Assembly (NCBI GenBank): GCA_028695935.1
Contig: JAQVHY010000009.1
Coordinates: forward strand, 1-37,992
Source: Desulfobacca sp.
Lineage (GTDB): Bacteria; Desulfobacterota; Desulfobaccia; Desulfobaccales; Desulfobaccaceae
Reading direction: 5' to 3'
Length of the DNA: 37,992 nt
Numbering within the stretch: position 1 is the stretch's first letter; every line of letters begins with the position of its first letter. The notes under the pieces were generated by a model that did not search any database, was not told the origin of the DNA, and saw nothing but the letters and a program-made list of their open reading frames with translations. Both the position numbers and the translations under genes were made by a program. Below, piece after piece: positions 12,314-15,026 of the stretch.

Positions 12314-12562
12314 TCATTGTCCGCCTTTGTGAGAACGGGGGTCCGGACCAGTCCTGCCGGTAATCAGGATGCTCTTTGCAGGGCCAATAGGGAGGTTCTT
12401 CTGGCAGCGGCTGCAGAGGTAATCCTTTCCCTTGATGTCCTGTAATGATATGGTATCAAGGAAACCCCGCATCAGATTAATGTGCTCCCCGACGTTCAGG
12501 CAATCCAAGCAAACGGTCTCTTCATCGAATAGGACTCCCACCACTGATTTCTTGGCTTCCAT
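12314..12562 (-). CDS. Small protein with two CxxC pairs (zinc-ribbon-like), unknown function
   Basis: Unrecognised 82-residue protein. It has two CxxC pairs, C18-x2-C21 and C50-x2-C53, spaced 28 residues apart, as in small zinc-ribbon or redox proteins. The basic tail ends RTGPDPRSHKGGQ. AGGAAG lies a few bases before the ATG at 12562, a plausible ribosome binding site. It is 168 bases downstream of the selenoprotein cluster on the same strand and might be its last member. The spacer contains hairpins (CTCCAT with ATGGAG; GGGGTT with AACCCC) that may separate transcription. Confidence 0.5.
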   Translation of the reverse strand: MEAKKSVVGVLFDEETVCLDCLNVGEHINLMRGFLDTISLQDIKGKDYLCSRCQKNLPIGPAKSILITGRTGPDPRSHKGGQ

Positions 12563-12730: not shown

Positions 12731-13042
12731 CTAGAAAGTTATCACCTTATTAGCCTCGGCCATCAATTCATACAAATCGTCCATCCAACCTATGGGGCAG
12801 CTGCTTGATCCCTCCAGACCGTGGGATTTCATGCAAACCCCTCAGACAAAAAAATCTCCCTCGAACTGATTGATTTGCCCCATAACATCAAAATGCTCGT
12901 TTCCTGCCTGTTCAAATAGAACGCCCTTTCCGAGCATAAAGACGCTGACCTCATCTCCTTTTTTGACACCGACGTTTGCCAGTCGCATGGCATTGAAGAT
13001 GGTTTCGCCGTCGTCTGTGGTAATGATAAACAAGACTTTCAT
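12731..13042 (-). CDS. DsrE-family selenoprotein (in-frame TGA read as Sec67)
   Basis: The full 103-residue frame runs from ATG 13042 to TAG 12731 with one internal TGA at 12844-12842. The N-terminal part is a typical DsrE/DsrF-like fold (MKVLFIITTDDGETIFNAMR; VSVFMLGKGV). The TGA falls where this family has its reactive cysteine, giving V-U-G-V-C-M-K, a U-x-x-C motif (U67, C70). The frame continues normally to the C-terminus (WMDDLYELMAEANKVITF), which argues against simple decay. DsrE-like proteins relay sulfur in persulfide form and are a previously reported bacterial selenoprotein family. It lies 13 bases after the thioredoxin-like selenoprotein gene and is probably in the same operon. 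Confidence 0.82.
12794..12841 (-). promoter_or_regulatory. SECIS-like hairpin of the DsrE-like selenoprotein
   Basis: Directly after the TGA (12844-12842), ATCCC pairs with GGGAT (plus-strand 12808-12827), enclosing a loop with GGTCT. An alternative inner pairing is CCA with TGG around CGGTC. An outer GGGG/CCCC pair (12838-12841 with 12794-12797) may extend it. The GGT falls at +25 to +27 from the T of TGA, the same register as in the two neighbouring genes. Bacterial SECIS elements sit just 3' of the Sec codon, and the E. coli fdhF loop likewise contains GGUCU. Confidence 0.6.
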
Positions 13043-13055
13043 TTTTTTGACCCCA

Positions 13056-13310
13056 TTACAGTTTCTGAGACAAAAAGCTCTCCATTTTGCTCTTATCCGT
13101 TGCTACATCAAGGGGCACCCAATCGTTTTGAAAAAGGACGTTGGTCGAACTCTTAAACGTGTAACCTTTCGCCTCTTCCGAATCCAAGGTATAAATCTTT
13201 ACGTCCAGCTTATCTCCGAATTTTTCCTTCATGTCATGGGCTACACCTATAGCCTTTCTGCATGACATTCAGCCAGGATTGCCACTGTGAAAAACGATCA
13301 GTTCGGGCAT
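13056..13310 (-). CDS. Thioredoxin-fold selenoprotein with UMSC motif (in-frame TGA read as Sec14)
   Basis: The 84-residue frame from ATG 13310, behind an excellent GAGGAGGAA ribosome binding site, runs to TAA 13056 with a TGA at codon 14. It reads MPELIVFHSGNPG-U-MSC-RKAIG, that is a first beta strand, then U-x-x-C at the head of helix 1, exactly where thioredoxin- and glutaredoxin-like proteins have CxxC. After it come VAHDMKEKFGDKLDVKIYTLDS and a C-terminal half ending MESFLSQKL. The good ribosome binding site lies only upstream of the TGA, so the shorter frame from the ATG at 13268 is unlikely to be the gene. It is probably a selenium-dependent thiol oxidoreductase. The next gene, 13 bases on, is the DsrE-like selenoprotein, a possible partner. 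Confidence 0.85.
13231..13268 (-). promoter_or_regulatory. SECIS hairpin of the thioredoxin-like selenoprotein
   Basis: Beginning at the base after the TGA (13271-13269), ATGTCATG pairs perfectly with CATGACAT (8 bp; plus-strand 13261-13268 and 13231-13238). Inside, after a CAGAAA bulge, GGCTA pairs with TAGCC (5 bp) around the apical loop TAGGTG. The GGT lies at +25 to +27 from the TGA. This is the clearest of the three SECIS candidates. Confidence 0.8.
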
Positions 13311-13394
13311 GTTAGATTCCTCCTCACAGCCATAGGGGTTAATGTTTATCCTCAATACACATTGTTCCTTGCATGGTTGCCATTTCCGGTGGCT

Positions 13395-13895
13395 CTAGTA
13401 ATTTTCTTGCCGCGGTGATTTCTTGATATCTATTAATCCTTGAGCGGATAGCTTTCCTTCCCTTCCCAGCTTGGAAAGCAGAAAAGTCGCGCCTCGGCAG
13501 GATAGGCCGAGACTCTCAGCCAGCGCCTTGTCATCCAACGGGCCGCGTGCCTTCAAAAGCTCAAGCACCTCTGCTTCCAGTTCTTCCAACCAATCCTCAA
13601 ACAGCGCCAGCAGGTCGGGGTCTGTGATTGCCGAGAGTTGCTCGGATTGGGCCACCTTGGCCACTAAGCCTCGGCACATCTGCGTTGGGTCGACACCTTC
13701 GCCCATGCACTCAGCCAGTCACAAATGCACTAAACTGGATACCTTATCGCCTTCGGACTGTCCGATCAGATTCATCAGAAAGCGCTCGCGCGCTTCGTTA
13801 TCAAGGTCCGTCAGAAGTCTTGCCAGGACCGTGGTGATTTTCGATAGGGCCTCCTCTGGGGCCATGCGGAAAACGATTTCAAAAAAATCATCCAT
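13395..13895 (-). CDS. Putative new selenoprotein, winged-helix-like (in-frame TGA read as Sec59)
   Basis: The frame runs from ATG 13895 to TAA 13395, 166 residues, with one internal TGA at 13721-13719. I do not recognise the family. The first 58 residues (MDDFFEIVFRMAPEEALSKI, then TTVLARLLTDLDNEARERFL) look all-helical. They lead into SSLVHL-U-LAECMGEG, a U-x3-C motif (U59, C63), with another Cys at 74. The last 50 residues (LELLKARGPLDDKALAESLG, then LLSKLGREGKLSAQ) resemble a winged-helix domain. Coding character is the same on both sides of the TGA, and a SECIS-like hairpin follows in the shared register. A GGAGG lies about 12 bases before the ATG. The gene starts 24 bases after the ArsR gene ends. 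It could be a selenium/thiol-sensing regulator or adaptor of the neighbouring redox proteins; this is inference. A nonsense mutation is the alternative. Confidence 0.7.
13686..13705 (-). promoter_or_regulatory. SECIS-like hairpin of the third selenoprotein
   Basis: TGGGCGA (+17 to +23 from the TGA) pairs with TCG-A-CCCA (+29 to +36, one bulged A), a 7-bp stem with apical loop AGGTG. The GGT falls at +25 to +27, the same as in the two downstream genes. The stem is compact and continuous, as expected of a bacterial SECIS upper helix. Confidence 0.7.
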
Positions 13896-13918: not shown

Positions 13919-14323
13919 TTAAAAGGTCTTTCTCGCCGACAAGAGATCCGTGGCCACCCCGCTCAACGTTCGTATCACGTCCAATATTCTCGCATCTGAC
14001 AGTTCATAGTAAATAAATGGTCCCTGGCGCTCCACCTTGACCAACAGGGAACGCTTCAACTCCTTCAAATGATGTGACACCAGCGGTTGCGACAGCTCCA
14101 ATTCCTCGACGATGGCGGAAACCGATTTTTTCCCACCGCTGATGAATAGCAGTATTCTCAGGCGGTTGCTGTCTGACAGACTCTTGGCTAGAAAGGCGGT
14201 GCTGTGCAGACGATCATTATCCAGCCGGCATTGCACCATAAATCCATTGTTGCGCCCGACCGCATCCGGTAAAATCCGATTTTGCTCTTCCGGCGACACT
14301 TGCTTTTCGGTATTACCCACCAT
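13919..14323 (-). CDS. ArsR-family transcriptional regulator
   Basis: A 134-residue winged-helix repressor. After a non-conserved N-terminal tail of about 40 residues come AKSLSDSNRLRILLFISGGK, the recognition helix region ELELSQPLVSHHLKELKRSL and the wing VERQGPFIYYELSD. The metal-site motif ELCVCDL of ArsR proper is absent; only one cysteine (C32) is present, so classic arsenic sensing is unlikely. The sequence before ATG 14323 lacks a clear ribosome binding site, so translation may depend on the upstream trxB remnant ending at 14342. A 22-base palindrome in the cluster promoter is a good operator candidate. Confidence 0.9.
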   Translation of the reverse strand: MVGNTEKQVSPEEQNRILPDAVGRNNGFMVQCRLDNDRLHSTAFLAKSLSDSNRLRILLFISGGKKSVSAIVEELELSQPLVSHHLKELKRSLLVKVERQGPFIYYELSDARILDVIRTLSGVATDLLSARKTF

Positions 14324-14341: not shown

Positions 14342-14910
14342 CTAGCTTTTTACCTTGACCGTGCCCCAGTCGACCACCTGGCCAGCCTGGCCGCCTTTCT
14401 GGGCCTCGACATAATGCGCCGCGGCTAAGGCCGCGGTGCACCCATCCGCCGCGGCGAGGACAATCTGGTTGGCATACTTTTGCCGAAGATCGCCCAAGTC
14501 GCACAGTAGGAAACTCCCATGCCGAAATTCTCATTCTCTCCGGGAATATTAAGCTTTCGGGCGGTGCCGCCGGTCGCCAGAATGATCGCCTGGGCTTTCA
14601 AAATGGTGCCGTCGGAGAAACGCACTGCATGGTATCCAATTCCAGGCTCGGTTGCGATGGCCTCTTGTTCTACAATTTCTAACTGATACCATTTGGCGTG
14701 CTGGAGGAACTTATCACCCAGATCCAGACCCCCGATCTTGATGAAGCCAGGGTAGTTCTCCACTTCCTTGGTAACCGCCACTTGGCCGCCGGGGAAGCCC
14801 TTTTCGATCAGCAGGGTCTTAAGCGCCGCTCGCATCGCGTAGATCCCCGCGGTCAAGCCCGCAGGTCCGCCGCCCACAATGATCAAATCGTAAACTTCGT
14901 TTCCGGACAC
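14342..14910 (-). pseudogene. trxB: Thioredoxin reductase-like gene with internal deletion and frameshift
   Basis: The N-terminal 130-odd residues are a good TrxB FAD domain: LIIVGGGPAGLTAGIYAMRA, PGGQVAVTKEVENYPGF, and AIILATGGTARKLNIPG up to GVSYCAT. The frame then switches. In another frame the TrxB C-terminus follows at once (DLRQKYANQIVLAAADGCTA, then HYVEAQ) and ends with TAG at 14342. The NADPH domain, about 130 residues, and the second Cys of the CATC active site are missing. The junction reads GCGACTTGGGC, and GCGACTTG would also be expected in the lost CATC codons, so a microhomology deletion is likely. An assembly collapse is the alternative. As it stands the open frame ends in an unrelated tail at 14425. 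Confidence 0.85.
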
Positions 14911-14986: not shown

Positions 14987-15026
14987 ATATATAAATCCAT
15001 TTATATATTAATATATTTTTTGTCAA
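14987..15026 (-). promoter_or_regulatory. Promoter and perfect 22-base palindromic operator of the ArsR/selenoprotein cluster
   Basis: On the - strand TTGACA (15026-15021) is followed after 15 to 17 bases by TATAAA or TAAATG. The proposed -10 lies inside a perfect inverted repeat: ATATATAAAT (14987-14996), CC, ATTTATATAT (14999-15008). AT-rich 10-2-10 palindromes overlapping the promoter are typical ArsR-family operators. The leader of about 75 bases runs to the trxB remnant at 14910. Confidence 0.6.

Follow-up and report, generated by a model that had tools for sequence, protein, structure and literature searches.

The window, that is, the whole stretch of 37,992 nucleotides of Desulfobacca sp. 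DNA that was analysed, carries the gene tsoA on its reverse strand together with several neighbors, some of which are broken. The features of the locus are the following:

14987-15008, palindrome: the perfect palindrome ATATATAAATGGATTTATATAT at the head of the trxB-tsoR-tsoA operon, by its motif score a candidate operator for the ArsR-type regulator TsoR.
14342-14910, reverse strand: relic of trxB (thioredoxin reductase-like), with an intact homologue in locus L005.
13919-14323, reverse strand: tsoR, an ArsR/SmtB-type regulator (NCBIfam NF045707, 165.6 bits, cut-off 115).
13452-13895, reverse strand: tsoA proper, about 148 residues with U59-x3-C63, C74 and a predicted C-terminal winged helix (NCBIfam NF045695, 206.4 bits; AlphaFold model).
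13719-13721, reverse strand: putative Sec codon of tsoA (residue 59), TGA in 79 of 80 homologues.
13686-13705, reverse strand: bacterial SECIS-like hairpin of 7 bp with an AGGTG loop and one bulged A, recognized by pairing above a synonymous-codon null and by compensatory changes.
13395-13451, reverse strand: read-through extension of the tsoA frame, comprising residues 149-166 and the stop, outside the family according to the family end and the coding pattern.
13372-13434, reverse strand: remains of a DnaJ-type (J-domain) gene, of which L002 and L003 have intact copies.
13056-13310, reverse strand: tsoX, encoding a thioredoxin-like selenoprotein with HSGNPGUMSC, Sec codon at 13271-13269 (NCBIfam NF045809, 145 bits, cut-off 52).
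12731-13042, reverse strand: gene of a DsrE/DsrF-like selenoprotein with FFVUGVC, Sec codon at 12844-12842 (Pfam PF02635, 38 bits, cut-off 22.7).

The tsoA frame (13395-13895, reverse strand; 501 bases, 166 codons) contains a single in-frame TGA at codon 59 (bases 13721-13719). Its ATG is situated 23 bases 3' of the stop codon of tsoR, the ArsR gene after which the earlier note had placed the start. The translation reads MDDFFEIV...VSSLVHLULAECMGEGVDPTQMC..., where LULAEC corresponds to residues 58-63. The frame does read through 166 codons with one TGA, as that note had described, but this length overstates the protein, because residues 149-166, on comparison of the window with its relatives, lack a coding pattern in the tsoA frame and are the relic of a J-domain gene read out of frame. 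In L002 and L003, a J-domain gene is found 3' of tsoA (the one at 6459-6773 of L002 matches Pfam DnaJ with 44 bits). The J-domain fragment of the window is out of frame with tsoA, whose own frame enters it for 18 codons. The natural end of TsoA is thus near residue 147-148. J-domain genes recur in tso operons, with hits in eight loci (6/57 in the operon survey described below).

The other broken gene is trxB. Its N-terminal part is intact as far as VSYCAT and is followed by an internal deletion and a frameshift, beyond which the C-terminal part (DLRQKYANQIVLAAADGCTAAL...) persists out of frame. The closest relative, L002, has a trxB that is broken in a different way and a tsoX with a TAG. With these two genes damaged, the operon of the window is partly eroded. 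In addition, neither TsoB nor TsoC was detected in the genome, which is 99% complete in 201 contigs. The best match to TsoB (NF045694) has 74 bits against a cut-off of 805, and a search for TsoC (NF045708), run without a positive control, gave no match. The breaks in trxB and the J-domain gene may represent real erosion in the lineage or, in part, errors of the draft assembly. The DsrE-like gene with its TGA is also present in L002 and L037. Downstream, at 12314-12562, there is an open reading frame of 82 residues with CxxC pairs (CLDC, CSRC), which ends in a TGA beyond which the frame continues; it has no family match, and no homologue was found in the tso loci.

The earlier note had proposed a new selenoprotein family. 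The selenoprotein appears to be real, but the family is not new, because residues 6-147 match the NCBIfam model NF045695, "LULAXC motif selenoprotein TsoA", above its cut-off of 170 bits, and because TsoA is listed in a review. The family, which received its name in 2025, is credited in NF045695 to Haft & Tolstoy 2025. The available text of the 2026 review (PMC13188914) lists TsoA, B, C, X and Y as known selenoprotein families with Haft & Tolstoy 2025 (mSystems 10:e0141724) as the source, mentions the TsoA motif LULAxC and the Tso (three-selenoprotein) operon, and gives no mechanism for TsoA. With the family already known, what is new here are the details of the tsoA operon, the RNA signal and the distant relatives. 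The original claim is of moderate to low interest, and the idea of a sensor and the unnamed sister branch described below are of higher interest. The case does confirm that true selenoproteins can be found by reading raw sequence.

To follow codon 59 through the family, about 85,000 species genomes were scanned with the protein. From the 111 relatives found, 80 loci were retained, and nearly all of these are labelled as deltaproteobacterial bacteria of the sulfate-reducer type. The aligned codon 59 is TGA in 79 of these 80 loci from other genomes, so that position 59 is not occupied by random residues. The remaining locus, L032, has AGA (Arg). This copy (2446-2898) keeps the hairpin, and a TGA copy (L029) with 81% DNA identity is present in the same bin; the AGA is either a natural variant or a sequencing error. 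All TsoA matches above the cut-off among 395 genomes of the phylum have one TGA each. In an alignment without the Arg59 copy, V56, U59, L60, A61, C63 and M64 are invariant and C74 is nearly so, in agreement with the U-x3-C arrangement that had been noticed from the window. Coding character was likewise said to be the same before and after the TGA. This holds for the natural TsoA part, where the differences between the window and eight relatives fall mainly at third codon positions both 5' and 3' of the TGA. A sequencing error or a pseudogene at the TGA is rejected because the TGA recurs in about 80 genomes.

The host possesses the machinery for selenocysteine insertion: selA (601 bits), selB (385 bits), selD (369 bits) and tRNA-Sec, the product of selC (79 bits), each score above the curated cut-off. 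The selD gene of the host (G000:C21:7934-8851) itself has one in-frame TGA, and its product is probably a selenoprotein; SelD is known to occur in this form.

The hairpin of 7 bp with an AGGTG loop, which the earlier note had seen just 3' of the TGA, is found at 13705-13686 and has the sequence TGGG-CGA / loop AGGTG / TCG-(A)-CCCA. Its conservation was compared with a null of 500 synonymous-codon swaps. The stem is paired in 94.7% of the cells of the alignment (68 distinct sequences); the null averages 91.3% and never exceeds 92.6%. Double changes in the stem number 21, against a null mean of 7.2 (maximum 13), and pairing drops below 45% when the 3' arm is shifted along. One stem pair links residue 65 with Asp69: Gly at residue 65 (GGC) occurs mostly with Asp69 encoded by GAC, and Asp at residue 65 (GAC) mostly with Asp69 encoded by GAT. 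This pair is G-C in 46 sequences, A-T in 16 and something else in 6 (Fisher p of about 5e-10, ignoring relatedness). The GG of the loop is retained across the relatives. Folding energy by itself gives no SECIS signal (mean z of -0.5 against the synonymous null), and the SECIS is visible in the pairing and covariation counts alone. The hairpin is conserved beyond what protein coding requires and is under selection.

By combining this information, it is possible to conclude that tsoA is very probably a genuine selenoprotein gene in a TsoR-controlled operon of the Tso type, with UGA59 decoded as selenocysteine. SelB and tRNA-Sec would decode the UGA under the direction of the hairpin, which begins 16 nt downstream of the U of the UGA. 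Another possibility is that the TGA is read as some other residue or suppressed, that is, read through without Sec, or that the gene is broken. The adjoining trxB and J-domain genes are broken, and decay is therefore occurring in the genome of the window. Nevertheless, the TGA and the hairpin have been kept in about 80 genomes, the changes on either side of the TGA being biased toward third codon positions, and the Sec machinery of the host is complete, which makes this explanation highly improbable. Less probable still is a pair of genes, namely a peptide of 58 residues that stops at the TGA and a protein of 103 residues that restarts at the ATG at 13706: a mechanical open reading frame does exist at 13395-13706, but the LAEC codons between the TGA and this ATG are invariant or nearly so, the restart would cut one family domain in two, and a true stop could freely become TAA or TAG, whereas the TGA is conserved.

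The reading of UGA59 as Sec leaves the role of TsoA to be considered, and its most constant neighbor bears on this question. The operon survey comprised 57 loci, namely those with long downstream sequence and the window. TsoR adjoins TsoA in 57/57, partly by construction, as TsoR was used to judge the length. Overall, TsoR was found in 78/81 loci, the remaining ones being cut by contig ends. TsoR and TsoA are the invariant pair of the tso operon. The other genes are more variable: TsoC is present in 42 of the 57 loci, TsoB in 34, DsrE-like in 12, TrxB in 12, TsoX in 11 and the J-domain protein in 6. TsoB and the DsrE-like protein never occur together (Fisher p 2e-6, without correction for relatedness), and the latter may stand in for the former, as both are proteins of the sulfur-transfer type.

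The palindrome of the window precedes trxB. About half of the regions upstream of tsoR contain a palindrome near ATATAAATnnATTTATAT, and sites with at least 13/16 agreement with ATATAAATNNATTTATAT are present in 55/112 upstream regions, compared with 1/112 after local shuffling. The palindrome is thus a candidate for, and probably is, the TsoR operator. The TsoR alignment has no conserved Cys, and its constant residues are the His pair of the recognition helix alone.

The AlphaFold model of TsoA is all-helical and, for the protein as a whole, weak (pLDDT 73, pTM 0.41). Residues 101-150 are confidently predicted as a winged helix with a pLDDT of about 90, and the N-terminal part is less certain, with a pLDDT of 52-85. 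The best Foldseek matches of the model are mostly winged helices, including those of the ArsR and Lrp types, none of them reaching E 0.001. A Pfam search with TsoA gave no significant match, none to an ArsR family (HTH_5/HTH_20) and MarR merely with E 0.13, and a search of solved structures with the TsoA sequence gave no match. The HTH_24 model does score above its cut-off in a distant relative. These predictions are consistent with the winged-helix-like C-terminus that had been suggested from the sequence of the window.

Weaker matches in the 395 phylum genomes are relatives that have the C-terminal part in common with TsoA. Three of them (L144-L146, about 119 residues each), which come from two genomes of a single genus, differ at the N-terminus (MEEKGCGPGMGMEMMKK...) and again carry U-x3-C in the motif MVERUMQMC, where an in-frame TGA is followed by a stable hairpin. 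Since their score against the TsoA model is just 59 bits and no other NCBIfam model gives a convincing match, they appear to form an unnamed, TsoA-related selenoprotein branch. The U of this short branch aligns ambiguously, either to U59, with a deletion of 12 residues, or to residue 70 of TsoA. Around L144-L146 there are genes for an arsenite methyltransferase/DUF2284 selenoprotein, for a membrane protein with a VTT domain and for an ArsR protein that resembles TsoR but scores below the TsoR cut-off. The loci of these three MVERUMQMC copies are L160, L161 and L162 (G278, G236). Other relatives (L140, L142, L147) have a Met-rich N-terminus, a Cys at or near the U column of L144-L146 and an adjoining ArsR gene, and in L141 both U59 and C63 are replaced by Met. 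The relatives that bear Cys or Met are mostly located beside ArsR genes. L163-L165 are likewise Met-rich relatives of TsoA with Cys for Sec and are paired with ArsR.

These observations make it possible to outline how TsoA might work. Conservation of the TGA, selection on the hairpin, the host machinery, family membership and the pairing of TsoR with TsoA are computed steps of this mechanism. In the helical N-terminal domain, U59, C63 and C74 would form an exposed selenolate/thiol site that responds to a soft metal(loid) or to a redox signal. As TsoR has no conserved Cys, the Sec/Cys site of TsoA may supply the detection of the soft ligand or redox state. The C-terminal winged helix and the constant partner TsoR would then couple this site to expression of the operon, whose controlled products would be the redox and sulfur-transfer proteins TsoX and the DsrE-like protein or TsoB/TsoC. 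That the U59/C63/C74 site is coupled to operon expression in this way is put forward tentatively. The redox or selenium sensor envisaged earlier gains some ground from the ArsR link, as a regulatory or sensor role that TsoA may have.

Alternatively, TsoA might be a Sec-dependent redox enzyme or a metal(loid) chaperone in an arsenic, selenium or organometal pathway, its winged helix serving merely for protein-protein contact. This alternative, which concerns the sensor step and not the identity of the Sec, has a chance somewhat short of even. Most Sec residues are catalytic. The operon partners are of the redox and sulfur-transfer type (TsoX thioredoxin-like, TsoB rhodanese/DsbD, and the DsrE-like protein), the sister branch adjoins the arsenite methyltransferase/DUF2284 selenoprotein, and ArsM-like genes are found near 7/57 tso loci. 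On the other hand, the Sec motif is predicted to lie in a helical and not in a thioredoxin-like context, the most constant partner of TsoA is a regulator and no enzyme, and the distant relatives with a Cys near the Sec region are also paired with ArsR. TsoA is about as likely to be a redox enzyme or a chaperone as to be a sensor, and the Sec fits either equally.

The sensor role offers the testable idea that selenocysteine is used for sensing and not for catalysis. It is suggested by the invariant pairing with TsoR, the operator-like palindrome, the absence of a conserved Cys from TsoR and the location of the Cys and Met relatives by ArsR genes. A broader and more doubtful speculation is that TsoA heads a superfamily of ArsR-paired proteins, each responsible for sensing within a regulator of two proteins, in which TsoR, itself without a conserved ligand, binds the operator and the Sec of TsoA is the detector. 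Its members would combine an N-terminal Sec/Cys/Met-rich site for soft ligands with a C-terminal winged helix, and would include the unnamed U-x3-C branch beside the arsenite-methyltransferase selenoproteins.

The protein of the window resembles TsoA as defined by NF045695 in its LULAEC motif, in the Sec at the same codon and in the adjoining TsoR. It differs in that its frame extends 18 residues beyond the family end into the J-domain relic and in that its operon lacks TsoB and TsoC. Compared with the Tso operon (TsoA-TsoB-TsoC with TsoR and TsoX), the locus is likewise a selenoprotein cluster, and its tsoR-tsoA-tsoX order is that of L005. In contrast to that operon, it has a DsrE-like selenoprotein in place of TsoB/TsoC, neither of which was found in the genome, and its trxB and J-domain genes are broken. 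The ArsR/SmtB metalloregulators provide the third comparison. The predicted C-terminal winged helix of TsoA matches that of the As(III)-responsive ArsR 6j05, though not significantly; unlike these regulators, TsoA matches no ArsR family of Pfam and has the Sec in an additional helical domain.
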